Shown: one piece after another, positions 1 through 23,925 of the stretch | How the letters are laid out: every line of letters starts with the position of its first letter | How positions within the stretch are numbered: position 1 is the stretch's first letter | NCBI RefSeq assembly: GCF_030253575.1 | Contig: NC_080566.1 | Span: 11,231,501-11,295,500, forward strand | Reading direction: 5' to 3' | Origin: Rhododendron vialii | Lineage: Eukaryota; Streptophyta; Magnoliopsida; Ericales; Ericaceae | Length of the DNA stretch: 64,000 nucleotides | Made by a program: the position numbers and the translations under genes | Notes under the pieces: model-generated | Told to the model about the DNA's origin: nothing | What the model saw: the letters and a program-made list of their open reading frames with translations, nothing else | The model's database searches: none

Positions 1-100
1 TAATGCACCGGATCCCATCAGAACTCCGCAGTTAGGCGTGCTTGGGCGAGAGTAGTACTAGGATGGGTGACCCCCTGGGAAGTCGTCGTGTTGCACCCCT
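1..100 (+). rRNA. 5S rRNA: 5S rRNA, unit 1 (left edge, partial)
   Basis: Cut by the window edge: only gene positions +21 to +120 are present. A55G, C105G. Spacer has the AAAGCAAGAG mark. Confidence 0.9.
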
Positions 101-359
101 TTTTCGTTTTTGTACGAAATCCCTTCCCCGCCCCCCGTTCCCTTCTTTCATCCGGTCGCCGCAACTTCGGCTCATTCCGTCCGGATCTTCCCGGAGAGTT
201 TTCGCAGCGATTTTTCGAGCTGCGAGCCAAAATAGCCCCGTCAGCGGGCACGTTCGGCCGTAGCCATCCCTCCAACGGGATACGGGGTCCGGCCGGCGAG
301 ACGTGGCTGGGAAAGCAAGAGATAGAGTGAGCAGTGCCCGACGGGGCAGAAAAATGGAA

Positions 360-387
360 CAAAAGAATTGAAAGCGGAGTGCCTATG
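360..387 (+). promoter_or_regulatory. Upstream positions, domain A form (before unit 2)
   Basis: The A-rich element and GC pair are as in the other domains, but -1 is G, giving CCTATGGGGTG. All complete domain A genes (units 2-35) have this. Units 4, 13 and 20 also have AGTTCC in place of AGTGCC at about -10 to -5. Confidence 0.65.
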
Positions 388-507
388 GGGTGCGATCATA
401 CCAGCACTAATGCACCGGATCCCATCAGAACTCCGCAGTTAGGCGTGCTTGGGCGAGAGTAGTACTAGGATGGGTGACCCCCTGGGAAGTCGTCGTGTTC
501 CACCCCT
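388..507 (+). rRNA. 5S rRNA: 5S rRNA, unit 2
   Basis: First complete copy. A55G, C105G and G113C; the last breaks the C6-G113 pair of the closing helix, so the transcript would fold less well. -1 is G. Confidence 0.88.
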
Positions 508-794
508 TTTTCGTTTTTGTACGAAATCCCTTCCCCGCCCCCCGTTCCCTTCTTTCATCCGGTCGCCGCAACTTCGGCTCATTCCGTCCGGATCTTCCCG
601 GAGAGTTTTCGCAGCGATTTTTCGAGCTGCGAGCCATAATAGCCCCGTCAGCGGGCACGTTCGGCCGTAGCCATCCCTCCAACGGGATACGGGGTCCGGC
701 CGGCGAGACGTGGCTGAGAAAGCCAGAGATAGAGTGAGAAGTGCTCGACGGGGCAGAAAAATGGAACAAAAGAATTGAAAGCGGAGTGCCTATG

Positions 795-914
795 GGGTGC
801 GATCATACCAGCACTAATGCACCGGATCCCATCAGAACTCCGCAGTTAGGCGCGCTTGGGCGAGAGTAGTACTAGGATGGGTGACCCCCTGGGAAGTCCT
901 CGTGTTGCACCCCT
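795..914 (+). rRNA. 5S rRNA: 5S rRNA, unit 3
   Basis: A55G and T59C, both in box A. Confidence 0.9.
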
Positions 915-1201
915 TTTTCGTTTTTGTACGAAATCCCTTCCCCGCCCCCCGTTCCCTTCTTTCATCCGGTCGCCGCAACTTCGGCTCATTCCGTCCGGAT
1001 CTTCCCGGAGAGTTTTCGCAGCGATTTTTCGAGCTGCGAGCCAAAATCGCCCCGTCAGCGGGCACGTTCGGCCGTAGCCATCCCTCCAACGGGATACGGG
1101 GTCCGGCCGGCGAGACGTGGCTGGGAAAGCCAGAGATAGAGTGAGCAGTGCCCGACGGGGCAGAAAAATGGAACAAAAGAATTGAAAGCGGAGTTCCTAT
1201 G

Positions 1202-1321
1202 GGGTGCGATCATACCAGCACTAATGCACCGGATCCCATCAGAACTCCGCAGTTAGGCGTGCTTGGGCGAGAGTAGTACTAGGATGGGTGACCCCCTGGG
1301 AAGTCGTCGTGTTGCACCCCT
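1202..1321 (+). rRNA. 5S rRNA: 5S rRNA, unit 4
   Basis: A55G, C105G. Preceded by AGTTCCTAT. Copy of unit 1. Confidence 0.9.
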
Positions 1322-1608
1322 TTTTCGTTTTTGTACGAAATCCCTTCCCCGCCCCCCGTTCCCTTCTTTCATCCGGTCGCCGCAACTTCGGCTCATTCCG
1401 TCCGGATCTTCCCGGAGAGTTTTCGCAGCGATTTTTCGAGCTGCGAGCCAAAATAGCCCCGTCAGCGGGCACGTTCGGCCGTAGCCATCCCTCCAACGGG
1501 ATACGGGGTCCGGCCGGCGAGACGTGGCTGGGAAAGCAAGAGATAGAGTGAGCAGTGCCCGACGGGGCAGAAAAATGGAACAAAAGAATTGAAAGCGGAG
1601 TGCCTATG

Positions 1609-1728
1609 GGGTGCGATCATACCAGCACTAATGCACCGGATCCCATCAGAACTCCGCAGTTAGGCGTGCTTGGGCGAGAGTAGTACTAGGATGGGTGACC
1701 CCCTGGGAAGTCGTCGTGTTCCACCCCT
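1609..1728 (+). rRNA. 5S rRNA: 5S rRNA, unit 5
   Basis: A55G, C105G, G113C. Copy of unit 2. Confidence 0.88.
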
Positions 1729-2015
1729 TTTTCGTTTTTGTACGAAATCCCTTCCCCGCCCCCCGTTCCCTTCTTTCATCCGGTCGCCGCAACTTCGGCT
1801 CATTCCGTCCGGATCTTCCCGGAGAGTTTTCGCAGCGATTTTTCGAGCTGCGAGCCATAATAGCCCCGTCAGCGGGCACGTTCGGCCGTAGCCATCCCTC
1901 CAACGGGATACGGGGTCCGGCCGGCGAGACGTGGCTGAGAAAGCCAGAGATAGAGTGAGAAGTGCTCGACGGGGCAGAAAAATGGAACAAAAGAATTGAA
2001 AGCGGAGTGCCTATG

Positions 2016-2135
2016 GGGTGCGATCATACCAGCACTAATGCACCGGATCCCATCAGAACTCCGCAGTTAGGCGCGCTTGGGCGAGAGTAGTACTAGGATG
2101 GGTGACCCCCTGGGAAGTCCTCGTGTTGCACCCCT
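2016..2135 (+). rRNA. 5S rRNA: 5S rRNA, unit 6
   Basis: A55G, T59C. Copy of unit 3. Confidence 0.9.
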
Positions 2136-2422
2136 TTTTCGTTTTTGTACGAAATCCCTTCCCCGCCCCCCGTTCCCTTCTTTCATCCGGTCGCCGCAAC
2201 TTCGGCTCATTCCGTCCGGATCTTCCCGGAGAGTTTTCGCAGCGATTTTTCGAGCTGCGAGCCAAAATCGCCCCGTCAGCGGGCACGTTCGGCCGTAGCC
2301 ATCCCTCCAACGGGATACGGGGTCCGGCCGGCGAGACGTGGCTGGGAAAGCCAGAGATAGAGTGAGCAGTGCCCGACGGGGCAGAAAAATGGAACAAAAG
2401 AATTGAAAGCGGAGTGCCTATG

Positions 2423-2542
2423 GGGTGCGATCATACCAGCACTAATGCACCGGATCCCATCAGAACTCCGCAGTTAGGCGTGCTTGGGCGAGAGTAGTAC
2501 TAGGATGGGTGACCCCCTGGGAAGTCCTCGTGTTGCACCCCT
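2423..2542 (+). rRNA. 5S rRNA: 5S rRNA, unit 7
   Basis: A55G only. Second T-run is four T. Confidence 0.9.
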
Positions 2543-2552
2543 TTTTCGTTTT
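2542..2552 (+). terminator. Terminator with short second run, T5-CG-T4 (unit 7)
   Basis: Seen in domain A units 7, 10, 15, 16, 20, 23, 24, 26, 27, 28 and 30-35. The C that shortens the second run also completes a 12-bp palindrome, TTTCGTACGAAA, at 2550-2561. Confidence 0.8.
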
Positions 2553-2829
2553 CGTACGAAATCCCTTCCCCGCCCCCCGTTCCCTTCTTTCATCCGGTCG
2601 CCGCAACTTCGGCTCATTCCGTCCGGATCTTCCCGGAGAGATTTCGCAGCGATTTTTCGAGCTGCGAGCCAAAATAGCCCCGTCAGCGGGCACGTTCGGC
2701 CGTAGCCATCCCTCCAACGGGATACGGGGTCCGGCCGGCGAGACGTGGCTGGGAAAGCCAGAGATAGAGTGAGCAGTTCCCGACGGGGCAGAAAAATGGA
2801 ACAAAAGAATTGAAAGCGGAGTGCCTATG

Positions 2830-2949
2830 GGGTGCGATCATACCAGCACTAATGCACCGGATCCCATCAGAACTCCGCAGTTAGGCGTGCTTGGGCGAGA
2901 GTAGTACTAGGATGGGTGACCCCCTGGGAAGTCGTCGTGTTGCACCCCT
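2830..2949 (+). rRNA. 5S rRNA: 5S rRNA, unit 8
   Basis: A55G, C105G. Confidence 0.9.
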
Positions 2950-3236
2950 TTTTCGTTTTTGTACGAAATCCCTTCCCCGCCCCCCGTTCCCTTCTTTCAT
3001 CCGGTCGCCGCAACTTCGGCTCATTCCGTCCGGATCTTCCCGGAGAGTTTTCGCAGCGATTTTTCGAGCTGCGAGCCAAAATAGCCCCGTCAGCGGGCAC
3101 GTTCGGCCGTAGCCATCCCTCCAACGGGATACGGGGTCCGGCCGGCGAGACGTGGCTGGGAAAGCCAGAGATAGAGTGAGCAGTGCCCGACGGGGCAGAA
3201 AAATGGAACAAAAGAATTGAAAGCGGAGTGCCTATG

Positions 3237-3356
3237 GGGTGCGATCATACCAGCACTAATGCACCGGATCCCATCAGAACTCCGCAGTTAGGCGTGCTTG
3301 GGCGAGAGTAGTACTAGGATGGGTGACCCCCTGGGAAGTCCTCGTGTTGCACCCCT
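3237..3356 (+). rRNA. 5S rRNA: 5S rRNA, unit 9
   Basis: A55G only. Like unit 6 but with T at 59. Confidence 0.9.
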
Positions 3357-3643
3357 TTTTCGTTTTTGTACGAAATCCCTTCCCCGCCCCCCGTTCCCTT
3401 CTTTCATCCGGTCGCCGCAACTTCGGCTCATTCCGTCCGGATCTTCCCGGAGAGTTTTCGCAGCGATTTTTCGAGCTGCGAGCCAAAATCGCCCCGTCAG
3501 CGGGCACGTTCGGCCGTAGCCATCCCTCCAACGGGATACGGGGTCCGGCCGGCGAGACGTGGCTGGGAAAGCCAGAGATAGAGTGAGCAGTGCCCGACGG
3601 GGCAGAAAAATGGAACAAAAGAATTGAAAGCGGAGTGCCTATG

Positions 3644-3763
3644 GGGTGCGATCATACCAGCACTAATGCACCGGATCCCATCAGAACTCCGCAGTTAGGC
3701 GTGCTTGGGCGAGAGTAGTACTAGGATGGGTGACCCCCTGGGAAGTCCTCGTGTTGCACCCCT
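3644..3763 (+). rRNA. 5S rRNA: 5S rRNA, unit 10
   Basis: A55G only. Copy of unit 7. Confidence 0.9.
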
Positions 3764-4050
3764 TTTTCGTTTTCGTACGAAATCCCTTCCCCGCCCCCCG
3801 TTCCCTTCTTTCATCCGGTCGCCGCAACTTCGGCTCATTCCGTCCGGATCTTCCCGGAGAGATTTCGCAGCGATTTTTCGAGCTGCGAGCCAAAATAGCC
3901 CCGTCAGCGGGCACGTTCGGCCGTAGCCATCCCTCCAACGGGATACGGGGTCCGGCCGGCGAGACGTGGCTGGGAAAGCCAGAGATAGAGTGAGCAGTTC
4001 CCGACGGGGCAGAAAAATGGAACAAAAGAATTGAAAGCGGAGTGCCTATG

Positions 4051-4170
4051 GGGTGCGATCATACCAGCACTAATGCACCGGATCCCATCAGAACTCCGCA
4101 GTTAGGCGTGCTTGGGCGAGAGTAGTACTAGGATGGGTGACCCCCTGGGAAGTCGTCGTGTTGCACCCCT
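4051..4170 (+). rRNA. 5S rRNA: 5S rRNA, unit 11
   Basis: A55G, C105G. Copy of unit 8. Confidence 0.9.
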
Positions 4171-4457
4171 TTTTCGTTTTTGTACGAAATCCCTTCCCCG
4201 CCCCCCGTTCCCTTCTTTCATCCGGTCGCCGCAACTTCGGCTCATTCCGTCCGGATCTTCCCGGAGAGTTTTCGCAGCGATTTTTCGAGCTGCGAGCCAA
4301 AATAGCCCCGTCAGCGGGCACGTTCGGCCGTAGCCATCCCTCCAACGGGATACGGGGTCCGGCCGGCGAGACGTGGCTGGGAAAGCCAGAGATAGAGTGA
4401 GCAGTGCCCGACGGGGCAGAAAAATGGAACAAAAGAATTGAAAGCGGAGTGCCTATG

Positions 4458-4577
4458 GGGTGCGATCATACCAGCACTAATGCACCGGATCCCATCAGAA
4501 CTCCGCAGTTAGGCGTGCTTGGGCGAGAGTAGTACTAGGATGGGTGACCCCCTGGGAAGTCCTCGTGTTGCACCCCT
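4458..4577 (+). rRNA. 5S rRNA: 5S rRNA, unit 12
   Basis: A55G only. Spacer has TTTTTGAACG and one C fewer in its C-run, so the unit is 406 bp. Confidence 0.9.
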
Positions 4578-4863
4578 TTTTCGTTTTTGAACGAAATCCC
4601 TTCCCCGCCCCCGTTCCCTTCTTTCATCCGGTCGCCGCAACTTCGGCTCATTCCGTTCGGATCTTCCCGGAGAGTTTTCGCAGCGATTTTTCGAGCTGCG
4701 AGCCAAAATCGCCCCGTCAGCGGGCACGTTCGGCCGTAGCCATCCCTCCAACGGGATACGGGGTCCGGCCGGCGAGACGTGGCTGGGAAAGCCAGAGATA
4801 GAGTGAGCAGTGCCCGACGGGGCAGAAAAATGGAACAAAAGAATTGAAAGCGGAGTTCCTATG

Positions 4864-4983
4864 GGGTGCGATCATACCAGCACTAATGCACCGGATCCCA
4901 TCAGAACTCCGCAGTTAGGCGTGCTTGGGCGAGAGTAGTACTAGGATGGGTGACCCCCTGGGAAGTCGTCGTGTTGCACCCCT
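4864..4983 (+). rRNA. 5S rRNA: 5S rRNA, unit 13
   Basis: A55G, C105G. Unit 1/4 type, including the AAAGCAAGAG spacer. Confidence 0.9.
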
Positions 4984-5270
4984 TTTTCGTTTTTGTACGA
5001 AATCCCTTCCCCGCCCCCCGTTCCCTTCTTTCATCCGGTCGCCGCAACTTCGGCTCATTCCGTCCGGATCTTCCCGGAGAGTTTTCGCAGCGATTTTTCG
5101 AGCTGCGAGCCAAAATAGCCCCGTCAGCGGGCACGTTCGGCCGTAGCCATCCCTCCAACGGGATACGGGGTCCGGCCGGCGAGACGTGGCTGGGAAAGCA
5201 AGAGATAGAGTGAGCAGTGCCCGACGGGGCAGAAAAATGGAACAAAAGAATTGAAAGCGGAGTGCCTATG

Positions 5271-5390
5271 GGGTGCGATCATACCAGCACTAATGCACCG
5301 GATCCCATCAGAACTCCGCAGTTAGGCGTGCTTGGGCGAGAGTAGTACTAGGATGGGTGACCCCCTGGGAAGTCCTCGTGTTGCACCCCT
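5271..5390 (+). rRNA. 5S rRNA: 5S rRNA, unit 14
   Basis: A55G only. Matches unit 25. Confidence 0.9.
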
Positions 5391-5677
5391 TTTTCGTTTT
5401 TGTACGAAATCCCTTCCCCGCCCCCCGTTCCCTTCTTTCATCCGGTCGCCGCAACTTCGGCTCATTCCGTCCGGATCTTCCCGGAGAGATTTCGCAGCGA
5501 TTTTTCGAGCTGCGAGCCAAAATAGCCCCGTCAGCGGGCACGTTCGGCCGTAGCCATCCCTCCAACGGGATACGGGGTCCGGCCGGCGAGACGTGGCTGG
5601 GAAAGCCAGAGATAGAGTGAGCAGTGCCCGACGGGGCAGAAAAATGGAACAAAAGAATTGAAAGCGGAGTGCCTATG

Positions 5678-5797
5678 GGGTGCGATCATACCAGCACTAA
5701 TGCACCGGATCCCATCAGAACTCCGCAGTTAGGCGTGCTTGGGCGAGAGTAGTACTAGGATGGGTGACCCCCTGGGAAGTCGTCGTGTTGCACCCCT
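5678..5797 (+). rRNA. 5S rRNA: 5S rRNA, unit 15
   Basis: A55G, C105G; four-T second run. Matches unit 26. Confidence 0.9.
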
Positions 5798-6084
5798 TTT
5801 TCGTTTTCGTACGAAATCCCTTCCCCGCCCCCCGTTCCCTTCTTTCATCCGGTCGCCGCAACTTCGGCTCATTCCGTCCGGATCTTCCCGGAGAGATTTC
5901 GCAGCGATTTTTCGAGCTGCGAGCCAAAATAGCCCCGTCAGCGGGCACGTTCGGCCGTAGCCATCCCTCCAACGGGATACGGGGTCCGGCCGGCGAGACG
6001 TGGCTGGGAAAGCCAGAGATAGAGTGAGCAGTGCCCGACGGGGCAGAAAAATGGAACAAAAGAATTGAAAGCGGAGTGCCTATG

Positions 6085-6204
6085 GGGTGCGATCATACCA
6101 GCACTAATGCACCGGATCCCATCAGAACTCCGCAGTTGGGCGTGCTTGGGCGAGAGTAGTACTAGGATGGGTGACCCCCTGGGAAGTCCTCGTGTTGCAC
6201 CCCT
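6085..6204 (+). rRNA. 5S rRNA: 5S rRNA, unit 16
   Basis: A54G and A55G (box A reads GTTGGGCG), shared only with unit 27. Confidence 0.87.
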
Positions 6205-6491
6205 TTTTCGTTTTCGTACGAAATCCCTTCCCCGCCCCCTGTTCCCTTCTTTCATCCGGTCGCCGCAACTTCGGCTCATTCCGTCCGGATCTTCCCGGAG
6301 AGATTTCGCAGCGATTTTTCGAGCTGCGAGCCAAAATAGCCCCGTCAGCGGGCACGTTCGGCCGTAGCCATCCCTCCAACGGGATACGGGGTCCGGCCGG
6401 CGAGACGTGGCTGGGAAAGCCAGAGATAGAGTGAGCAGTGCCCGACGGGGCAGAAAAATGGAACAAAAGAATTGAAAGCGGAGTGCCTATG

Positions 6492-6611
6492 GGGTGCGAT
6501 CATACCAGCACTAATGCACCGGATCCCATCAGAACTCCGCAGTTAGGCGTGCTTGGGCGAGAGTAGTACTAGGATGGGTGACCCCCTGGGAAGTCGTCGT
6601 GTTGCACCCCT
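6492..6611 (+). rRNA. 5S rRNA: 5S rRNA, unit 17
   Basis: A55G, C105G; spacer with TCGCCCC. Confidence 0.9.
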
Positions 6612-6898
6612 TTTTCGTTTTTGTACGAAATCCCTTCCCCGCCCCCCGTTCCCTTCTTTCATCCGGTCGCCGCAACTTCGGCTCATTCCGTCCGGATCTT
6701 CCCGGAGAGTTTTCGCAGCGATTTTTCGAGCTGCGAGCCAAAATCGCCCCGTCAGCGGGCACGTTCGGCCGTAGCCATCCCTCCAACGGGATACGGGGTC
6801 CGGCCGGCGAGACGTGGCTGGGAAAGCCAGAGATAGAGTGAGCAGTGCCCGACGGGGCAGAAAAATGGAACAAAAGAATTGAAAGCGGAGTGCCTATG

Positions 6899-7018
6899 GG
6901 GTGCGATCATCCCAGCACTAATGCACCGGATCCCATCAGAACTCCGCAGTTAGGCGTGCTTGGGCGAGAGTAGTACTAGGATGGGTGACCCCCTGGGAAG
7001 TCGTCGTGTTGCACCCCT
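6899..7018 (+). rRNA. 5S rRNA: 5S rRNA, unit 18
   Basis: A13C (unique), A55G, C105G. Spacer matches unit 29. Confidence 0.88.
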
Positions 7019-7305
7019 TTTTCGTTTTTGTACGAAATCCCTTCCCCGCCCCCCGTTCCCTTCTTTCATCCGGTCGCCGCAACTTCGGCTCATTCCGTCC
7101 GGATCTTCCCGGAGAGATTTCGCAGCGATTTTTCGAGCTGCGAGCCATAATAGCCCCGTCAGCGGGCACGTTCGGCCGTAGCCATCCCTCCAACGGGATA
7201 CGGGGTCCGGCCGGCGAGACGTGGCTGAGAAAGCCAGAGATAGAGTGAGAAGTGCTCGACGGGGCAGAAAAATGGAACAAAAGAATTGAAAGCGGAGTGC
7301 CTATG

Positions 7306-7425
7306 GGGTGCGATCATACCAGCACTAATGCACCGGATCCCATCAGAACTCCGCAGTTAGGCGCGCTTGGGCGAGAGTAGTACTAGGATGGGTGACCCCC
7401 TGGGAAGTCCTCGTGTTGCACCCCT
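7306..7425 (+). rRNA. 5S rRNA: 5S rRNA, unit 19
   Basis: A55G, T59C. Confidence 0.9.
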
Positions 7426-7712
7426 TTTTCGTTTTTGTACGAAATCCCTTCCCCGCCCCCCGTTCCCTTCTTTCATCCGGTCGCCGCAACTTCGGCTCAT
7501 TCCGTCCGGATCTTCCCGGAGAGTTTTCGCAGCGATTTTTCGAGCTGCGAGCCAAAATCGCCCCGTCAGCGGGCACGTTCGGCCGTAGCCATCCCTCCAA
7601 CGGGATACGGGGTCCGGCCGGCGAGACGTGGCTGGGAAAGCCAGAGATAGAGTGAGCAGTGCCCGACGGGGCAGAAAAATGGAACAAAAGAATTGAAAGC
7701 GGAGTTCCTATG

Positions 7713-7832
7713 GGGTGCGATCATACCAGCACTAATGCACCGGATCCCATCAGAACTCCGCAGTTAGGCGTGCTTGGGCGAGAGTAGTACTAGGATGGGT
7801 GACCCCCTGGGAAGTCCTCGTGTTGCACCCCT
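7713..7832 (+). rRNA. 5S rRNA: 5S rRNA, unit 20
   Basis: A55G only; AGTTCCTAT flank; four-T second run. Confidence 0.9.
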
Positions 7833-8119
7833 TTTTCGTTTTCGTACGAAATCCCTTCCCCGCCCCCCGTTCCCTTCTTTCATCCGGTCGCCGCAACTTC
7901 GGCTCATTCCGTCCGGATCTTCCCGGAGAGATTTCGCAGCGATTTTTCGAGCTGCGAGCCAAAATAGCCCCGTCAGCGGGCACGTTCGGCCGTAGCCATC
8001 CCTCCAACGGGATACGGGGTCCGGCCGGCGAGACGTGGCTGGGAAAGCCAGAGATAGAGTGAGCAGTGCCCGACAGGGCAGAAAAATGGAACAAAAGAAT
8101 TGAAAGCGGAGTGCCTATG

Positions 8120-8239
8120 GGGTGCGATCATACCAGCACTAATGCACCGGATCCCATCAGAACTCCGCAGTTAGGCGTGCTTGGGCGAGAGTAGTACTAG
8201 GATGGGTGACCCCCTGGGAAGTCGTCGTGTTGCACCCCT
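8120..8239 (+). rRNA. 5S rRNA: 5S rRNA, unit 21
   Basis: A55G, C105G; spacer ends in the GCTGAGAAAGCC form of units 2 and 5. Confidence 0.9.
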
Positions 8240-8526
8240 TTTTCGTTTTTGTACGAAATCCCTTCCCCGCCCCCCGTTCCCTTCTTTCATCCGGTCGCCG
8301 CAACTTCGGCTCATTCCGTCCGGATCTTCCCGGAGAGTTTTCGCAGCGATTTTTCGAGCTGCGAGCCAAAATCGCCCCGTCAGCGGGCACGTTCGGCCGT
8401 AGCCATCCCTCCAACGGGATACGGGGTCCGGCCGGCGAGACGTGGCTGAGAAAGCCAGAGATAGAGTGAGAAGTGCTCGACGGGGCAGAAAAATGGAACA
8501 AAAGAATTGAAAGCGGAGTGCCTATG

Positions 8527-8646
8527 GGGTGCGATCATACCAGCACTAATGCACCGGATCCCATCAGAACTCCGCAGTTAGGCGTGCTTGGGCGAGAGTA
8601 GTACTAGGATGGGTGACCCCCTGGGAAGTCCTCGTGTTGCACCCCT
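8527..8646 (+). rRNA. 5S rRNA: 5S rRNA, unit 22
   Basis: A55G only. Spacer has private CATTCGGTCG and GGGGTAGAAA changes. Confidence 0.9.
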
Positions 8647-8933
8647 TTTTCGTTTTTGTACGAAATCCCTTCCCCGCCCCCCGTTCCCTTCTTTCATTCG
8701 GTCGCCGCAACTTCGGCTCATTCCGTCCGGATCTTCCCGGAGAGTTTTCGCAGCGATTTTTCGAGCTGCGAGCCAAAATCGCCCCGTCAGCGGGCACGTT
8801 CGGCCGTAGCCATCCCTCCAACGGGATACGGGGTCCGGCCGGCGAGACGTGGCTGGGAAAGCCAGAGATAGAGTGAGCAGTGCCCGACGGGGTAGAAAAA
8901 TGGAACAAAAGAATTGAAAGCGGAGTGCCTATG

Positions 8934-9053
8934 GGGTGCGATCATACCAGCACTAATGCACCGGATCCCATCAGAACTCCGCAGTTAGGCGTGCTTGGGC
9001 GAGAGTAGTACTAGGATGGGTGACCCCCTGGGAAGTCCTCGTGTTGCACCCCT
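8934..9053 (+). rRNA. 5S rRNA: 5S rRNA, unit 23
   Basis: A55G only; four-T second run; private GGGCATAAAA in the spacer. Confidence 0.9.
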
Positions 9054-9340
9054 TTTTCGTTTTCGTACGAAATCCCTTCCCCGCCCCCCGTTCCCTTCTT
9101 TCATCCGGTCGCCGCAACTTCGGCTCATTCCGTCCGGATCTTCCCGGAGAGATTTCGCAGCGATTTTTCGAGCTGCGAGCCAAAATAGCCCCGTCAGCGG
9201 GCACGTTCGGCCGTAGCCATCCCTCCAACGGGATACGGGGTCCGGCCGGCGAGACGTGGCTGGGAAAGCCAGAGATAGAGTGAGCAGTGCCCGACGGGGC
9301 ATAAAAATGGAACAAAAGAATTGAAAGCGGAGTGCCTATG

Positions 9341-9460
9341 GGGTGCGATCATACCAGCACTAATGCACCGGATCCCATCAGAACTCCGCAGTTAGGCGTG
9401 CTTGGGCGAGAGTAGTACTAGGATGGGTGACCCCCTGGGAAGTCCTCGTGTTGCACCCCT
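9341..9460 (+). rRNA. 5S rRNA: 5S rRNA, unit 24
   Basis: A55G only; four-T second run; private GGCTTATTCC in the spacer. Confidence 0.9.
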
Positions 9461-9747
9461 TTTTCGTTTTCGTACGAAATCCCTTCCCCGCCCCCCGTTC
9501 CCTTCTTTCATCCGGTCGCCGCAACTTCGGCTTATTCCGTCCGGATCTTCCCGGAGAGATTTCGCAGCGATTTTTCGAGCTGCGAGCCAAAATAGCCCCG
9601 TCAGCGGGCACGTTCGGCCGTAGCCATCCCTCCAACGGGATACGGGGTCCGGCCGGCGAGACGTGGCTGGGAAAGCCAGAGATAGAGTGAGCAGTGCCCG
9701 ACGGGGCAGAAAAATGGAACAAAAGAATTGAAAGCGGAGTGCCTATG

Positions 9748-9867
9748 GGGTGCGATCATACCAGCACTAATGCACCGGATCCCATCAGAACTCCGCAGTT
9801 AGGCGTGCTTGGGCGAGAGTAGTACTAGGATGGGTGACCCCCTGGGAAGTCCTCGTGTTGCACCCCT
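9748..9867 (+). rRNA. 5S rRNA: 5S rRNA, unit 25
   Basis: A55G only. Copy of unit 14. Confidence 0.9.
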
Positions 9868-10154
9868 TTTTCGTTTTTGTACGAAATCCCTTCCCCGCCC
9901 CCCGTTCCCTTCTTTCATCCGGTCGCCGCAACTTCGGCTCATTCCGTCCGGATCTTCCCGGAGAGATTTCGCAGCGATTTTTCGAGCTGCGAGCCAAAAT
10001 AGCCCCGTCAGCGGGCACGTTCGGCCGTAGCCATCCCTCCAACGGGATACGGGGTCCGGCCGGCGAGACGTGGCTGGGAAAGCCAGAGATAGAGTGAGCA
10101 GTGCCCGACGGGGCAGAAAAATGGAACAAAAGAATTGAAAGCGGAGTGCCTATG

Positions 10155-10274
10155 GGGTGCGATCATACCAGCACTAATGCACCGGATCCCATCAGAACTC
10201 CGCAGTTAGGCGTGCTTGGGCGAGAGTAGTACTAGGATGGGTGACCCCCTGGGAAGTCGTCGTGTTGCACCCCT
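10155..10274 (+). rRNA. 5S rRNA: 5S rRNA, unit 26
   Basis: A55G, C105G. Copy of unit 15. Confidence 0.9.
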
Positions 10275-10561
10275 TTTTCGTTTTCGTACGAAATCCCTTC
10301 CCCGCCCCCCGTTCCCTTCTTTCATCCGGTCGCCGCAACTTCGGCTCATTCCGTCCGGATCTTCCCGGAGAGATTTCGCAGCGATTTTTCGAGCTGCGAG
10401 CCAAAATAGCCCCGTCAGCGGGCACGTTCGGCCGTAGCCATCCCTCCAACGGGATACGGGGTCCGGCCGGCGAGACGTGGCTGGGAAAGCCAGAGATAGA
10501 GTGAGCAGTGCCCGACGGGGCAGAAAAATGGAACAAAAGAATTGAAAGCGGAGTGCCTATG

Positions 10562-10681
10562 GGGTGCGATCATACCAGCACTAATGCACCGGATCCCATC
10601 AGAACTCCGCAGTTGGGCGTGCTTGGGCGAGAGTAGTACTAGGATGGGTGACCCCCTGGGAAGTCCTCGTGTTGCACCCCT
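10562..10681 (+). rRNA. 5S rRNA: 5S rRNA, unit 27
   Basis: A54G, A55G. Copy of unit 16. Confidence 0.87.
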
Positions 10682-10968
10682 TTTTCGTTTTCGTACGAAA
10701 TCCCTTCCCCGCCCCCTGTTCCCTTCTTTCATCCGGTCGCCGCAACTTCGGCTCATTCCGTCCGGATCTTCCCGGAGAGATTTCGCAGCGATTTTTCGAG
10801 CTGCGAGCCAAAATAGCCCCGTCAGCGGGCACGTTCGGCCGTAGCCATCCCTCCAACGGGATACGGGGTCCGGCCGGCGAGACGTGGCTGGGAAAGCCAG
10901 AGATAGAGTGAGCAGTGCCCGACGGGGCAGAAAAATGGAACAAAAGAATTGAAAGCGGAGTGCCTATG

Positions 10969-11087
10969 GGGTGCGATCATACCAGCACTAATGCACCGGA
11001 TCCCATCAGAACTCCGCAGTTAGGCGTGCTTGGGCGAGAGTAGTACTAGGATGGGTGACCCCCTGGGAAGTCCTCGTGTTGCACCCT
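10969..11087 (+). rRNA. 5S rRNA: 5S rRNA, unit 28 (119 bp)
   Basis: A55G; three C instead of four before the T-run, which shortens the 3' overhang but leaves the closing helix possible. Confidence 0.88.
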
Positions 11088-11374
11088 TTTTCGTTTTCGT
11101 ACGAAATCCCTTCCCCGCCCCCCGTTCCCTTCTTTCATCCGGTCGCCGCAACTTCGGCTCATTCCGTCCGGATCTTCCCGGAGAGTTTTCGCAGCGATTT
11201 TTCGAGCTGCGAGCCAAAATCGCCCCGTCAGCGGGCACGTTCGGCCGTAGCCATCCCTCCAACGGGATACGGGGTCCGGCCGGCGAGACGTGGCTGGGAA
11301 AGCCAGAGATAGAGTGAGAAGTGCTCGACGGGGCAGAAAAATGGAACAAAAGAATTGAAAGCGGAGTGCCTATG

Positions 11375-11494
11375 GGGTGCGATCATACCAGCACTAATGC
11401 ACCGGATCCCATCAGAACTCCGCAGTTAGGCGTGCTTGGGCGAGAGTAGTACTAGGATGGGTGACCCCCTGGGAAGTCGTCGTGTTGCACCCCT
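11375..11494 (+). rRNA. 5S rRNA: 5S rRNA, unit 29
   Basis: A55G, C105G; spacer like unit 18. Confidence 0.9.
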
Positions 11495-11781
11495 TTTTCG
11501 TTTTTGTACGAAATCCCTTCCCCGCCCCCCGTTCCCTTCTTTCATCCGGTCGCCGCAACTTCGGCTCATTCCGTCCGGATCTTCCCGGAGAGATTTCGCA
11601 GCGATTTTTCGAGCTGCGAGCCATAATAGCCCCGTCAGCGGGCACGTTCGGCCGTAGCCATCCCTCCAACGGGATACGGGGTCCGGCCGGCGAGACGTGG
11701 CTGAGAAAGCCAGAGATAGAGTGAGAAGTGCTCGACGGGGCAGAAAAATGGAACAAAAGAATTGAAAGCGGAGTGCCTATG

Positions 11782-11901
11782 GGGTGCGATCATACCAGCA
11801 CTAATGCACCGGATCCCATCAGAACTCCGCAGTTAGGCGCGCTTGGGCGAGAGTAGTACTAGGATGGGTGACCCCCTGGGAAGTCCTCGTGTTGCACCCC
11901 T
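11782..11901 (+). rRNA. 5S rRNA: 5S rRNA, unit 30
   Basis: A55G, T59C; first member of the 813-bp dimer series. Confidence 0.9.
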
Positions 11902-12188
11902 TTTTCGTTTTCGTACGAAATCCCTTCCCCGCCCCCCGTTCCCTTCTTTCATCCGGTCGCCGCAACTTCGGCTCATTCCGTCCGGATCTTCCCGGAGAGA
12001 TTTCGCAGCGATTTTTCGAGCTGCGAGCCAAAATCGCCCCGTCAGCGGGCACGTTCGGCCGTAGCCATCCCTCCAACGGGATACGGGGTCCGGCCGGCGA
12101 GACGTGGCTGGGAAAGCCAGAGATAGAGTGAGCAGTGCCCGACGGGGCAGAAAAATGGAACAAAAGAATTGAAAGCGGAGTGCCTATG

Positions 12189-12307
12189 GGGTGCGATCAT
12201 ACCAGCACTAATGCACCGGATCCCATCAGAACTCCGCAGTTAGGCGTGCTTGGGCGAGAGTAGTACTAGGATGGGTGACCCCCTGGGAAGTCCTCGTGTT
12301 GCACCCT
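12189..12307 (+). rRNA. 5S rRNA: 5S rRNA, unit 31 (119 bp)
   Basis: A55G; 3' C-run short by one, as unit 28. Confidence 0.88.
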
Positions 12308-12594
12308 TTTTCGTTTTCGTACGAAATCCCTTCCCCGCCCCCCGTTCCCTTCTTTCATCCGGTCGCCGCAACTTCGGCTCATTCCGTCCGGATCTTCCCG
12401 GAGAGTTTTCGCAGCGATTTTTCGAGCTGCGAGCCAAAATCGCCCCGTCAGCGGGCACGTTCGGCCGTAGCCATCCCTCCAACGGGATACGGGGTCCGGC
12501 CGGCGAGACGTGGCTGGGAAAGCCAGAGATAGAGTGAGAAGTGCTCGACGGGGCAGAAAAATGGAACAAAAGAATTGAAAGCGGAGTGCCTATG

Positions 12595-12714
12595 GGGTGC
12601 GATCATACCAGCACTAATGCACCGGATCCCATCAGAACTCCGCAGTTAGGCGCGCTTGGGCGAGAGTAGTACTAGGATGGGTGACCCCCTGGGAAGTCCT
12701 CGTGTTGCACCCCT
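12595..12714 (+). rRNA. 5S rRNA: 5S rRNA, unit 32
   Basis: A55G, T59C. Copy of unit 30. Confidence 0.9.
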
Positions 12715-13001
12715 TTTTCGTTTTCGTACGAAATCCCTTCCCCGCCCCCCGTTCCCTTCTTTCATCCGGTCGCCGCAACTTCGGCTCATTCCGTCCGGAT
12801 CTTCCCGGAGAGATTTCGCAGCGATTTTTCGAGCTGCGAGCCAAAATCGCCCCGTCAGCGGGCACGTTCGGCCGTAGCCATCCCTCCAACGGGATACGGG
12901 GTCCGGCCGGCGAGACGTGGCTGGGAAAGCCAGAGATAGAGTGAGCAGTGCCCGACGGGGCAGAAAAATGGAACAAAAGAATTGAAAGCGGAGTGCCTAT
13001 G

Positions 13002-13120
13002 GGGTGCGATCATACCAGCACTAATGCACCGGATCCCATCAGAACTCCGCAGTTAGGCGTGCTTGGGCGAGAGTAGTACTAGGATGGGTGACCCCCTGGG
13101 AAGTCCTCGTGTTGCACCCT
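13002..13120 (+). rRNA. 5S rRNA: 5S rRNA, unit 33 (119 bp)
   Basis: A55G; short C-run. Copy of unit 31. Confidence 0.88.
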
Positions 13121-13407
13121 TTTTCGTTTTCGTACGAAATCCCTTCCCCGCCCCCCGTTCCCTTCTTTCATCCGGTCGCCGCAACTTCGGCTCATTCCGT
13201 CCGGATCTTCCCGGAGAGTTTTCGCAGCGATTTTTCGAGCTGCGAGCCAAAATCGCCCCGTCAGCGGGCACGTTCGGCCGTAGCCATCCCTCCAACGGGA
13301 TACGGGGTCCGGCCGGCGAGACGTGGCTGGGAAAGCCAGAGATAGAGTGAGAAGTGCTCGACGGGGCAGAAAAATGGAACAAAAGAATTGAAAGCGGAGT
13401 GCCTATG

Positions 13408-13527
13408 GGGTGCGATCATACCAGCACTAATGCACCGGATCCCATCAGAACTCCGCAGTTAGGCGCGCTTGGGCGAGAGTAGTACTAGGATGGGTGACCC
13501 CCTGGGAAGTCCTCGTGTTGCACCCCT
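13408..13527 (+). rRNA. 5S rRNA: 5S rRNA, unit 34
   Basis: A55G, T59C. Copy of units 30 and 32. Confidence 0.9.
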
Positions 13528-13814
13528 TTTTCGTTTTCGTACGAAATCCCTTCCCCGCCCCCCGTTCCCTTCTTTCATCCGGTCGCCGCAACTTCGGCTC
13601 ATTCCGTCCGGATCTTCCCGGAGAGATTTCGCAGCGATTTTTCGAGCTGCGAGCCAAAATCGCCCCGTCAGCGGGCACGTTCGGCCGTAGCCATCCCTCC
13701 AACGGGATACGGGGTCCGGCCGGCGAGACGTGGCTGGGAAAGCCAGAGATAGAGTGAGCAGTGCCCGACGGGGCAGAAAAATGGAACAAAAGAATTGAAA
13801 GCGGAGTGCCTATG

Positions 13815-13933
13815 GGGTGCGATCATACCAGCACTAATGCACCGGATCCCATCAGAACTCCGCAGTTAGGCGTGCTTGGGCGAGAGTAGTACTAGGATGG
13901 GTGACCCCCTGGGAAGTCCTCGTGTTGCACCCT
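13815..13933 (+). rRNA. 5S rRNA: 5S rRNA, unit 35 (119 bp), last domain A gene
   Basis: A55G and short C-run, -1 G: still domain A. Its spacer turns into domain B sequence by 14141, so this is the hybrid unit at the A/B junction. Confidence 0.9.
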
Positions 13934-14192
13934 TTTTCGTTTTCGTACGAAATCCCTTCCCCGCCCCCCGTTCCCTTCTTTCATCCGGTCGCCGCAACTT
14001 CGGCTCATTCCGTCCGGATCTTCCCGGAGAGTTTTCGCAGCGATTTTTCGAGCTGCGAGCCAAAATCGCCCCGTCAGCGGGCACGTTCGGCCGTAGCCAT
14101 CCCTCCAACGGGATACGGGGTCCGGCCGGCGAGACGTGGCCAAGAAAGCCAGAGATAGAGTGAGCAGTGCCCGACGGGGCAGAAAAATGGAC

Positions 14193-14220: not shown

Positions 14221-14340
14221 GGGTGCGATCATACCAGCACTAATGCACCGGATCCCATCAGAACTCCGCAGTTAAGCGTGCTTGGGCGAGAGTAGTACTA
14301 GGATGGGTGACCCCCTGGGAAGTCCTCGTGTTGCACCCCT
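14221..14340 (+). rRNA. 5S rRNA: 5S rRNA, unit 36, first canonical gene
   Basis: 5S rRNA is a structural RNA of the large ribosomal subunit; it binds uL18 and uL5 and TFIIIA. This copy has the full 120-nt plant form: GGGTGC at +1 pairs with GCACCC at +113 to +118 to close helix I, box A is GTTAAGCGTGC, and ATGGGTGACC forms the core of box C. It carries the GGATCC (BamHI) site at +30 to +35 that is classic for plant 5S genes. -1 is C. I set +1 by that pairing and by the known 120-nt length. The 407-bp spacer class follows. Confidence 0.97.
14270..14317 (+). promoter_or_regulatory. Internal control region of unit 36 (box A, IE, box C)
   Basis: In plant 5S genes box A lies about +50 to +64, the intermediate element about +67 to +72 and box C from about +80. 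In unit 36 these fall at 14270-14284 (AGTTAAGCGTGCTTG), 14287-14292 and from 14300. TFIIIA contacts this region. Changes inside it elsewhere are A50T, A54G, A55G, T59C, G64T, C91T, C95A and the short form of units 141 and 147. Confidence 0.8.
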
Positions 14341-18309: not shown

Positions 18310-18429
18310 GGGTGCGATCATACCAGCACTAATGCACCGGATCCCATCAGAACTCCGCAGTTAAGCGTGCTTGGGCGAGAGTAGTACTAGGATGGGTGAC
18401 CCCCTGGGAAGTCCTCGTGTTGCACCCCT
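18310..18429 (+). rRNA. 5S rRNA: 5S rRNA, unit 46
   Basis: Consensus gene; first 397-bp unit; spacer has ACGTGTCCAAG. Confidence 0.97.
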
Positions 18430-18706
18430 TTTTCGTTTTTGTACGAAATCCCTTCCCCGCCCCCCGTTCCCTTCTTTCATCCGGTCGCCGCAACTTCGGC
18501 TCATTCCGTCCGGATCTTCCCGGAGAGATTTCGCAGCGATTTTTCGAGCTGCGAGCCAAAATAGCCCCGTCAGCGGGCACGTTCGGCCGTAGCCATCCCT
18601 CCAACGGGACACGGGGTCCGCCCGGCGAGACGTGTCCAAGATAGAGCGAGCGGTGCCCGACGGGGCAGAAAAATGGAACAAAAGAATTGAAAGCGGAGTG
18701 CCTATC
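18430..18706. repeat. Spacer, 397-bp class (unit 46 example)
   Basis: Ten bases are missing where other classes read AAGAAAGCCAGAGATAGAG; here it is AAGATAGAG. The missing piece is bounded by short AGA repeats, consistent with slippage. The spacer also has GGGACACGGGG. It occurs only in domain B. Confidence 0.85.
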
Positions 18707-18826
18707 GGGTGCGATCATACCAGCACTAATGCACCGGATCCCATCAGAACTCCGCTGTTAAGCGTGCTTGGGCGAGAGTAGTACTAGGATGGGTGATCCC
18801 CTGGGAAGTCCTCGTGTTGCACCCCT
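18707..18826 (+). rRNA. 5S rRNA: 5S rRNA, unit 47
   Basis: A50T at the edge of box A and C91T in the box C region. 397-bp unit. Confidence 0.93.
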
Positions 18827-19103
18827 TTTTCGTTTTTGTACGAAATCCCTTCCCCGCCCCCCGTTCCCTTCTTTCATCCGGTCGCCGCAACTTCGGCTCA
18901 TTCCGTCCGGATCTTCCCGGAGAGATTTCGCAGCGATTTTTCGAGCTGCGAGCCAAAATAGCCCCGTCAGCGGGCACGTTCGGCCGTAGCCATCCCTCCA
19001 ACGGGACACGGGGTCCGCCCGGCGAGACGTGGCCAAGATAGAGCGAGCGGTGCCCGACGGGGCGGAAAAATGGAACAAAAGAATTGAAAGCGGAGTGCCT
19101 ATC

Positions 19104-19223
19104 GGGTGCGATCATACCAGCACTAATGCACCGGATCCCATCAGAACTCCGCTGTTAAGCGTGCTTGGGCGAGAGTAGTACTAGGATGGGTGATCCCCTG
19201 GGAAGTCCTCGTGTTGCACCCCT
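19104..19223 (+). rRNA. 5S rRNA: 5S rRNA, unit 48
   Basis: A50T, C91T. 397-bp unit with GGGGTTCGGCC. Confidence 0.93.
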
Positions 19224-19500
19224 TTTTCGTTTTTGTACGAAATCCCTTCCCCGCCCCCCGTTCCCTTCTTTCATCCGGTCGCCGCAACTTCGGCTCATTC
19301 CGTCCGGATCTTCCCGGAGAGATTTCGCAGCGATTTTTCGAGCTGCGAGCCAAAATAGCCCCGTCAGCGGGCACGTTCGGCCGTAGCCATCCCTCCAACG
19401 GGACACGGGGTTCGGCCGGCGAGACGTGGCCAAGATAGAGCGAGCAGTGCCCGACGGGGCAGAAAAATGGAACAAAAGAATTGAAAGCGGAGTGCCTATC

Positions 19501-19620
19501 GGGTGCGATCCTACCAGCACTAATGCACCGGATCCCATCAGAACTCCGCAGTTAAGCGTGCTTGGGCGAGAGTAGTACTAGGATGGGTGACCCCCTGGGA
19601 AGTCCTCGTGTTGCACCGCT
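19501..19620 (+). rRNA. 5S rRNA: 5S rRNA, unit 49
   Basis: A11C and C118G; the second breaks the terminal G1-C118 pair. 397-bp unit. Confidence 0.92.
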
Positions 19621-19897
19621 TTTTCGTTTTTGTACGAAATCCCTTCCCCGCCCCCCGTTCCCTTCTTTCATCCGGTCGCCGCAACTTCGGCTCATTCCGT
19701 CCGGATCTTCCCGGAGAGATTTCGCAGCGATTTTTCGAGCTGCGAGCCAAAATAGCCCCGTCAGCGGGCACGTTCGGCCGTCGCCATCCCTCCAACGGGA
19801 CACGGGGTCCGGCCGGCGAGACGTGGCCAAGATAGAGCGAGCAGTGCCCGACGGGGCAGAAAAATGGAACAAAAGAATTGAAAGCGGAGTGCCTATC

Positions 19898-20017
19898 GGG
19901 TGCGATCATACCAGCACTAATGCACCGGATCCCATCAGAACTCCGCAGTTAAGCGTGCTTGGGCGAGAGTAGTACTAGGATGGGTGACCCCCTGGGAAGT
20001 CCTCGTGTTGCACCCCT
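19898..20017 (+). rRNA. 5S rRNA: 5S rRNA, unit 50
   Basis: Consensus gene, 397-bp unit with AACTGGACTCGG. Confidence 0.97.
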
Positions 20018-20294
20018 TTTTCGTTTTTGTACGAAATCCCTTCCCCGCCCCCCGTTCCCTTCTTTCATCCGGTCGCCGCAACTTCGGCTCATTCCGTCCG
20101 GATCTTCCCGGAGAGATTTCGCAGCGATTTTTCGAGCTGCGAGCCAAAATAGCCCCGTCAGCGGGCACGTTCGGCCGTAGCCATCCCTCCAACTGGACTC
20201 GGGGTCCGGCCGGCGAGACGTGGCCAAGATAGAGCGAGGAGTGCCCGACGGGGCAGAAAAATGGAACAAAAGAATTGAAAGCGGAGTGCCTATC

Positions 20295-20414
20295 GGGTGC
20301 GATCATACCAGCACTAAGTCACCAGATCCCATCAGAACTTCGCAGTTAAGCGTGCTTGGGCGAGAGTAGTACTAGGATGGGTGACCCCCTGGGAAGTCCT
20401 CGTGTTGCACCCCT
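20295..20414 (+). rRNA. 5S rRNA: 5S rRNA, unit 51
   Basis: T24G, G25T, G30A, C46T: the most changed gene in the window; the BamHI site is lost. Promoter boxes intact. Confidence 0.9.
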
Positions 20415-20691
20415 TTTTCGTTTTTGTACGAAATCCCTTCCCCGCCCCCCGTTCCCTTCTTTCATCCGGTCGCCGCAACTTCGGCTCATTCCGTCCGGAT
20501 CTTCCCGGAGAGATTTCGCAGCGATTTTTCCAGCTGCGAGCCGAAATAGCCCCGTCAGCGGGCACGTTCGGCCGTAGCCATCCCTCCAACGGGACACGGG
20601 GTCCGGCCGGCGAGACGTGGCCAAGATAGAGCGAGCAGTGCCCGACGGGGCAGAAAAATGGAACAAAAGAATTGAAAGCGGAGTGCCTATC

Positions 20692-20811
20692 GGGTGCGAT
20701 CATACCAGCACTAATGCACCGGATCCCATCAGAACTCCGCAGTTAAGCGTGCTTGGGCGAGAGTAGTACTAGGATGGGTGACCCCATGGGAAGTCCTCGT
20801 GTTGCACCCCT
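20692..20811 (+). rRNA. 5S rRNA: 5S rRNA, unit 52
   Basis: C95A in the box C region. 397-bp unit. Confidence 0.93.
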
Positions 20812-21088
20812 TTTTCGTTTTTGTACGAAATCCCTTCCCCGCCCCCCGTTCCCTTCTTTCATCCGGTCGCCGCAACTTCGGCTCATTCCGTCCGGATCTT
20901 CCCGGAGAGATTTCGCAGCGATTTTTCGAGCTGCGAGCCAAAATAGCCCCGTCAGCGGGCACGTTCGGCCGTAGCCATCCCTCCAACGGGACTCGGGGTC
21001 CGGCCGGCGAGACGTGGCCAAGATAGAGCGAGGAGTGCCCGACGGGGCAGAAAAATGGAACAAAAGAATTGAAAGCGGAGTGCCTATC

Positions 21089-21208
21089 GGGTGCTATCAT
21101 ACCAGCACTAATGCACCAGATCCCATCAGAACTCCGCAGTTAAGCGTGCTTGGGCGAGAGTAGTACTAGGATGGGTGACCCCCTGGGAAGTCCTCGTGTT
21201 GCACCCCT
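21089..21208 (+). rRNA. 5S rRNA: 5S rRNA, unit 53
   Basis: G7T (helix I) and G30A (BamHI site lost). 407-bp unit. Confidence 0.92.
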
Positions 21209-21495
21209 TTTTCGTTTTTGTACGAAATCCCTTCCCCGCCCCCCGTTCCCTTCTTTCATCCGGTCGCCGCAACTTCGGCTCATTCCGTCCGGATCTTCCC
21301 GGAGAGTTTTCGCAGCGATTTTTCCAGCTGCGAGCAAAAATAGCCCCGTCAGCGGGCACGTTCGGCCGCAGCCATCCCTCCAACGGGATACGGGGTCCGG
21401 CCGGCGAGACGTGGCCAAGAAAGCCAGAGATAGAGCAAGCAGTGCCCGACGGGGCAGAAAAATGGAACAAAAGAATTGAAAGCGGAGTGCCTATC

Positions 21496-21615
21496 GGGTG
21501 CGATCATACCAGCACTAATGCACCGGATCCCATCAGAACTCCGCAGTTAAGCGTGCTTGGGCGAGAGTAGTACTAGGATGGGTGACCCCCTGGGAAGTCC
21601 TCGTGTTGCACCCCT
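21496..21615 (+). rRNA. 5S rRNA: 5S rRNA, unit 54
   Basis: Consensus gene, 411-bp unit; spacer combines TGCAGCG with CCAGCTGCGAG. Confidence 0.97.
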
Positions 21616-21906
21616 TTTTCGTTTTTGTACGAAATCCCTTCCCCGCCCCCCGTTCCCTTCTTTCATCCGGTCGCCGCAACTTCGGCTCATTCCGTCCGGA
21701 TCTTCCCGGAGAGTTTTCGCTGCAGCGATTTTTCCAGCTGCGAGCCAAAATAGCCCCCTTCAGCGGGCACTCTCGGCCGTAGCCATCCCTCCAACGGGAT
21801 ACGGGGTCCGGCCGGCGAGACGTGGCCAAGAAAGCCAGAGATAGAGTGAGCAGTGCCCGACGGGGCAGAAAAATGGACCAAAAGAATTGAAAGCGGAGTG
21901 CCTATC

Positions 21907-22026
21907 GGGTGCGATCATACCAGCACTAATGCACCGGATCCCATCAGAACTCCGCAGTTAAGCGTGCTTGGGCGAGAGTAGTACTAGGATGGGTGACCCC
22001 CTGGGAAGTCCTCGTGTTGCACCCCT
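21907..22026 (+). rRNA. 5S rRNA: 5S rRNA, unit 55
   Basis: Consensus gene, 407-bp unit; private GGGGCCGGAAAA at the spacer end. Confidence 0.97.
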
Positions 22027-22313
22027 TTTTCGTTTTTGTACGAAATCCCTTCCCCGCCCCCCGTTCCCTTCTTTCATCCGGTCGCCGCAACTTCGGCTCA
22101 TGCCGTCCGGATCTTCCCGGAGAGTTTTCGCAGCGATTTTTCCAGCTTCGAGCCAAAATAGCCCCGTCAGCGGGCACGTTCGGCCGCAGCCATCCCTCCA
22201 ACGGGATACGGGGTCCGGCCGGCGAGACGTGGCCAAGAAAGCCAGAGATAGAGCGAGCGGTGCCCGACGGGGCCGGAAAATGGACCAAAAGAATTGAAAG
22301 CGGAGTGCCTATC

Positions 22314-22433
22314 GGGTGCGATCATACCAGCACTAATGCACCGGATCCCATCAGAACTCCGCAGTTAAGCGTGCTTGGGCGAGAGTAGTACTAGGATGGG
22401 TGACCCCCTGGGAAGTCCTCGTGTTGCACCCCT
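22314..22433 (+). rRNA. 5S rRNA: 5S rRNA, unit 56
   Basis: Consensus gene, 411-bp unit. Confidence 0.97.
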
Positions 22434-22724
22434 TTTTCGTTTTTGTACGAAATCCCTTCCCCGCCCCCCGTTCCCTTCTTTCATCCGGTCGCCGCAACTT
22501 CGGCTCATTCCGTCCGGATCTTCCCGGAGAGTTTTCGCTGCAGCGATTTTTCGAGCTGCGAGCCAAAATAGCCCCCTTCAGCGGGCACTCTCGGCCGTAG
22601 CCATCCCTCCAACGGGATACGGGGTCCGGCCGGCGAGACGTGGCCAAGAAAGCCAGAGATAGAGGGAGCGGTGCCCGACGGGGCCGAAAAATGGACCAAA
22701 AGAATTGAAAGCGGAGTGCCTATC

Positions 22725-22844
22725 GGGTGCGATCATACCAGCACTAATGCACCGGATCCCATCAGAACTCCGCAGTTAAGCGTGCTTGGGCGAGAGTAGT
22801 ACTAGGATGGGTGACCCCCTGGGAAGTCCTCGTGTTGCACCCCT
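22725..22844 (+). rRNA. 5S rRNA: 5S rRNA, unit 57
   Basis: Consensus gene, 397-bp unit, like unit 46. Confidence 0.97.
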
Positions 22845-23121
22845 TTTTCGTTTTTGTACGAAATCCCTTCCCCGCCCCCCGTTCCCTTCTTTCATCCGGT
22901 CGCCGCAACTTCGGCTCATTCCGTCCGGATCTTCCCGGAGAGATTTCGCAGCGATTTTTCGAGCTGCGAGCCAAAATAGCCCCGTCAGCGGGCACGTTCG
23001 GCCGTAGCCATCCCTCCAACGGGACACGGGGTCCGCCCGGCGAGACGTGTCCAAGATAGAGCGAGCGGTGCCCGACGGGGCAGAAAAATGGAACAAAAGA
23101 ATTGAAAGCGGAGTGCCTATC

Positions 23122-23241
23122 GGGTGCGATCATACCAGCACTAATGCACCGGATCCCATCAGAACTCCGCTGTTAAGCGTGCTTGGGCGAGAGTAGTACT
23201 AGGATGGGTGATCCCCTGGGAAGTCCTCGTGTTGCACCCCT
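23122..23241 (+). rRNA. 5S rRNA: 5S rRNA, unit 58
   Basis: A50T, C91T. Spacer is mosaic: 397-class middle but a GAGTGAGCAG and GGACCAAAAG end. Confidence 0.93.
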
Positions 23242-23518
23242 TTTTCGTTTTTGTACGAAATCCCTTCCCCGCCCCCCGTTCCCTTCTTTCATCCGGTCGC
23301 CGCAACTTCGGCTCATTCCGTCCGGATCTTCCCGGAGAGATTTCGCAGCGATTTTTCGAGCTGCGAGCCAAAATAGCCCCGTCAGCGGGCACGTTTGGCC
23401 GTAGCCATCCCTCCAACGGGACACGGGGTCCGCCCGGCGAGACGTGGCCAAGATAGAGTGAGCAGTGCCCGACGGGGCAGAAAAATGGACCAAAAGAATT
23501 GAAAGCGGAGTGCCTATC

Positions 23519-23638
23519 GGGTGCGATCATACCAGCACTAATGCACCGGATCCCATCAGAACTCCGCAGTTAAGCGTGCTTGGGCGAGAGTAGTACTAGG
23601 ATGGGTGACCCCCTGGGAAGTCCTCGTGTTGCACCCCT
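23519..23638 (+). rRNA. 5S rRNA: 5S rRNA, unit 59
   Basis: Consensus gene, 407-bp unit. Duplicate of unit 44 without C105G. Confidence 0.97.
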
Positions 23639-23925
23639 TTTTCGTTTTTGTACGAAATCCCTTCCCCGCCCCCCGTTCCCTTCTTTCATCCGGTCGCCGC
23701 AACTTCGGCTCATGCCGTCCGGATCTTCCCGGAGAGTTTTCGCAGCGATTTTTCCAGCTTCGAGCCAAAATAGCCCCGTCAGCGGGCACGTTCGGCCGCA
23801 GCCATCCCTCCAACGGGATACGGGGTCCGGCCGGCGAGACGTGGCCAAGAAAGCCAGAGATAGAGCGAGCGGTGCCCGACGGGGCCGAAAAATGGACCAA
23901 AAGAATTGAAAGCGGAGTGCCTATC

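Follow-up and report, generated by a model that had tools for sequence, protein, structure and literature searches.

The stretch of Rhododendron vialii DNA analyzed here, hereafter the window (64,000 nucleotides), opens in a block of tandem 5S rRNA genes, domain A, in which no fewer than 35 successive units belong to one lineage, whose end is marked by a single recombination point within spacer 35. The genes of this block are set apart by two changes in their promoter region: a G for A at position 55 of the gene (A55G) and a G for C at the base immediately upstream of it (-1). We consider it probable, with a confidence of roughly 60%, that domain A is a locally homogenized minor ribotype whose genes are transcribed at or below the normal rate.

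An Rfam search places 158 5S genes in the window, all on the forward strand and forming one continuous tandem array. The genes are of plant type, 119 bp long, and the units mostly measure 407 bp. A tandem gene of about 119-120 bp, followed by a T-run terminator (a TTTTT run 3' of the gene) and a spacer, identifies the array as plant S-type (tandem, unlinked) 5S rDNA. An A-rich CAAAAG occupies the TATA-like position (-28 to -23), and in every domain GC is found at -14/-13, while the site where it usually lies (-12/-11) reads GG; C at -1 is confined to domains B and C. Gene variants were tabulated base by base against the commonest gene sequence of the array.

This table bears out the original prediction on the distribution of both changes. 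Up to 13933, A55G is present in every domain A gene (35 of 35), and G occupies -1 in each of the 34 genes whose upstream base can be read, while neither change occurs in any of the 123 genes that follow (36 to 158), all of which combine A55 with C at -1. The window begins within gene 1, so that the upstream base of this gene falls outside, and its position 55, at window base 35 of the forward strand, is the first A55G; the first visible G at -1 is that of gene 2, at 387 on the same strand, and in genes 2 to 35 the two changes lie at gene start +54 and gene start -1, respectively. Since the first base of the window already lies within the array, 35 is a minimum block size and the count of A55G genes a lower bound. 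All on the forward strand, gene 7 (2423..2541) has A55G as its sole difference from the main type, gene 2 (388..506) adds C105G and G113C, gene 35 (13815..13933, with G at its -1 base, 13814) is the final A55G gene and gene 36 (14221..14339) the first to show A55 and C at -1 (14220). Position 55 falls within box A, as had been claimed, provided that this element spans positions 50-64 of the 5S gene (PMC3342222). In a run test A55G forms one unbroken run, and the other tested variants are scattered: C14A occurs 19 times in 16 runs, C105G 13 times in 11 and T59C 6 times in 6. The chance of 35 out of 158 genes falling in one terminal block under random placement is about 10^-35, a figure to be taken as a sign of common descent and not of function, since a random null is unrealistic for tandem repeats.

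Descent is also apparent in the spacers. The unit alignment resolves 74 haplotypes, none of them common to different domains, and the mean unit difference is 5.0 within domain A, 15.4 between domains A and B and 18.9 between domains A and C. Strictly fixed differences between domains A and B comprise position 55, -1 and the adjacent spacer columns 333-334 of the alignment; the alleles at these columns are as private to domain A as both promoter changes, which are thus part of a larger lineage signature. In a tree built from the spacer only, leaving out the gene and -1, domain A makes up one side of a branch with an SH-aLRT support of 80, and A55G and the G at -1 each require one change; with all columns included, the support of the domain A branch reaches 94. 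Branch support is moderate, not strong. Domain A is one lineage with private spacer alleles, and the claim of a separately evolving sub-array stands on the lack of common unit haplotypes, the single branch of the spacer-only tree and the single junction described below. The same cannot be said of what had been drawn from the linkage of the two changes. Positions -1 and +55, separated by 56 bp within one unit, are inherited together by hitch-hiking, so that complete linkage is expected, as most exchanges fall elsewhere in the unit. Such linkage follows from a single founder unit and therefore carries no information on function; its interpretation as a sign of selection was discarded on these grounds.

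Domain A comprises units of 406-407 bp on the forward strand (1..14094), its 3' limit being the last A-type diagnostic site. The predicted extent of about 14 kb agrees with the end of the last A55G gene at 13933, but the switch of type itself takes place between 14094 and 14141, inside spacer 35. The sequence of unit 35 is A-type to 14094 and domain-B type, resembling units 40 and 43, from 14141, which delimits a recombination junction at 14095..14140 (forward strand) that separates gene 35, still on the A side, from the -1 base of gene 36. Past this junction the alleles in the 3' half of the unit (C A A, T, A, A, C, C) equal those of units 40 and 43 at all diagnostic sites, which favors a simple recombinant over an ancestral intermediate as the reading of unit 35. 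The boundary is best read as the probable outcome of one recombination event in the spacer. A switch of type at a single point could also arise in assembly, if two haplotypes or loci had been misjoined at about 14.1 kb; 5S arrays pose difficulties for assembly, and array size differs between assemblies of a single Arabidopsis accession (PMC9757041). We regard such an artefact as very unlikely, however, for the junction unit has a normal length (406 bp) and the allele combination of its 3' half is that of units 40 and 43; in either case, the A55G genes would be real.

Two further series of repeated units are found in the array. Units 92-113 (36846-45801) and 114-135 (45802-54757) form a 22-unit tandem repeat of about 9 kb whose two copies have the same unit haplotypes, suggestive of a large, recent duplication, and in domain B the 8-unit series 47-54 (18707-21906) recurs with identical haplotypes, 15 units apart, as units 62-69 (24734-27933). 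Local amplification is therefore at work in the array. For domain A, we envisage that A55G and the G at -1 arose on one founder unit, that this unit would have spread by unequal crossing-over or gene conversion, mostly between neighbors, and that exchange across the domain boundary has probably been rare. As a sequence finding, domain A would represent ordinary local homogenization, the normal course of such arrays.

It is possible, though not probable, that neutral hitch-hiking is all that has taken place, with A55G and G at -1 being harmless and the block transcribed exactly like the rest of the array. According to the Rfam alignment, position 55 belongs to loop B (UAAG) and is unpaired; with A55G the predicted minimum energy stays at -41.4 kcal/mol, consistent with a harmless change. 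The T-run terminator, the IE and the C box are also intact in domain A, and 30 of 34 domain A genes share an upstream sequence of 40 bases that departs from the commonest domain B sequence at -1 only. Against neutrality, A55G lowers the score of the gene in the 5S model from 113.8 to 108.5, and this loss of 5.3 bits, equal to that of the pair-breaking C14A, points to A55 as a well-conserved base. The G at -1, in turn, abolishes the CpG at -1/+1 and, being a purine, would remove the start-site pyrimidine and with it the pyrimidine-purine start. The premise that plant 5S transcription favors C at -1 holds in part: C is usual in plant 5S genes but not a firm rule, since over half of Solanum species have T in its place (PMC9043955), a precedent for harmless change, though G departs further from C. 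In Cardamine amara, moreover, all 5S transcripts come from genes altered in box A, IE and box C (PMC13087485), so that output does not have to fall when box A changes. Overall, the direct precedents for the output of altered 5S genes point both ways. Scanning for plant 5S DNA, with either A or G allowed at positions 54/55, produced no match in bacterial or archaeal genome contigs or in viral contigs, and the upstream region had none in viral contigs.

The purine at -1 opens a further, very improbable, scenario. The T(-2)/G(-1) step is the nearest pyrimidine-purine step, and a start shifted to it would yield an RNA beginning at -1 (GGGGUGCG...), 120 nt long and of a distinct type. Pairing of the extra G with C119 would give a helix I of 10 pairs and a predicted energy of -43.9 versus -41.4 kcal/mol. 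Were this the case, domain A would produce a 120-nt 5S rRNA marked by its longer helix I and by G55; this RNA might have a stability or a tissue use of its own.

The original prediction had also proposed that domain A is weak or silent. Its genes would then be transcriptionally repressed, in the manner of the minor 5S genes of Arabidopsis, which depart from the major genes in one or more positions and are repressed in adult plants (PMC2754527). The ratio of gene to spacer nucleotide diversity, in units that are not independent of each other, is 0.21 in domain C, 0.29 in the other B units, 0.70 in domain A and 1.64 in the B units of 397 bp, with unit resampling intervals of 0.51-0.91 for domain A and 0.14-0.30 for domain C. 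This threefold excess over domain C suggests that domain A is under relaxed constraint, a fragile indication and not a firm one: with the same lack of independence among repeats, segregating-site counts of 5:18 (domain A) and 3:22 (domain C) do not differ significantly (p = 0.45), as a neutral block would also have it. Box A itself contains three of the seven gene changes of the A lineage (p ~0.05, on small numbers and tested post hoc), and besides A55G the element is altered in domain A by T59C (six genes) and A54G (two genes). Of the 35 domain A genes, 19 carry C105G or T59C, and either change disrupts a consensus pair. Together with the two promoter-region changes and the raised diversity ratio, the box A changes and broken pairs would fit a silent sub-array, and the diversity ratio and box A changes, by indicating some relaxation, also detract from strict neutrality.

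Silenced, methylated rDNA is usually marked by the loss of C through deamination. Among the five gene polymorphisms of domain A, however, there is no C-to-T or G-to-A change, and CpG depletion was not found in the block, whose CpG counts equal those of domain C; both results speak against silencing, and the CpG counts are also in keeping with a neutral block. Indel damage in domain A genes is limited to the loss of one C at the 3' end of four genes. Most of them carry one or two changes and, unlike 5S pseudogenes, do not show indels or several substitutions with a lost fold; gene 2, in which A55G, C105G and G113C are combined, comes nearer to a pseudogene (predicted energy -34.3). In domain C (32774-63830), about a quarter of the genes are pair-broken, mostly by C14A, which disrupts C14-G65 and whose carriers are interspersed among normal genes. 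Genes 141 (56793) and 147 (59234) have, in addition to C14A, a shortened box C region (CCCCCTGGG to CCCTTGGG) and are likely impaired.

The most altered 5S genes of the window are found elsewhere, in the part of domain B that served as a comparison set (18310..31144, forward strand). Here, units 46-52, 57-58, 61-67 and 72-76 measure 397/398 bp owing to a spacer short by 10 bp, their genes carry either A50T and C91T or the combination T24G, G25T, G30A and C46T, and gene diversity exceeds spacer diversity. These units look far more decayed than domain A and, as candidate pseudogenes, would be better candidates for dead genes. The notion of a weak or silent block thus draws some support from the diversity ratio (0.70 against 0.21), but the site counts, the undepleted CpG and the comparison with the 397-bp units weigh against it, and we consider outright silence of domain A unlikely.

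The preservation of the terminator, the upstream region, the IE and the C box in genes that can still fold indicates that domain A, as a minor ribotype, is probably transcribed. Start-site choice and factor binding would be expected to suffer from the purine at -1 and the changed box A, so that output may lie, less certainly, at or somewhat below the normal rate; weaker genes could be tolerated by the array because 5S genes are in large excess. That domain A might instead encode a minor type of 5S rRNA put to a use of its own, specific to a tissue or stage as in the oocyte and somatic types of frogs and fish, had been put forward as well, and no positive evidence came to its support. Its fixation and maintenance in at least 35 units during spacer divergence and the compatibility of loop B changes with folding are in line with such a role, as is the presence of position 55 among the oocyte/somatic differences of Xenopus. 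Constraint in domain A is, however, not stronger than in domain C but rather the reverse, and additional variants within the block are common without being block-wide, making a dedicated use hardly credible.

Xenopus provides an instance of two 5S types, oocyte and somatic, that differ in their internal promoter. Domain A and the main type of the array bear this likeness to them, but the Xenopus types reside at separate loci, have different spacers and follow a developmental switch, whereas domain A shares one array and alignable spacers with the main type. Another parallel is found in the minor genes of the chromosome 4 and 5 arrays of Arabidopsis thaliana, which are heterochromatic and repressed in adult wild-type plants and also differ at few positions inside a large tandem array; domain A likewise differs from the major gene, through A55G in all its genes and C105G, T59C and others in subsets. 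In contrast to the Arabidopsis minor genes, domain A constitutes an unbroken block of at least 35 genes. Ordered blocks of variant 5S units have been described in the 5S cluster of Caenorhabditis elegans N2 (PMC8961926), but this is an animal cluster, with units of about 976 bp, for which we found no report of a pair of promoter changes. Box A or the -1 base also varies in nature in other plants, as in the box A variants of duckweed (Spirodela ribotypes 2 and 4; PMC11070557), in type 2 of Cardamine amara and in the T at -1 of Solanum. In the literature consulted on other plant 5S families we found no contiguous block that combines A55G with G at -1. A contiguous, sequence-tagged block within one 5S array provides a natural reporter, as position 55 assigns RNA reads to domain A and makes it possible to ask whether array position, promoter sequence or chromatin decides the use of a 5S gene. 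Among these systems, domain A would add to a known kind, and we tentatively file it as a locally homogenized minor 5S ribotype.
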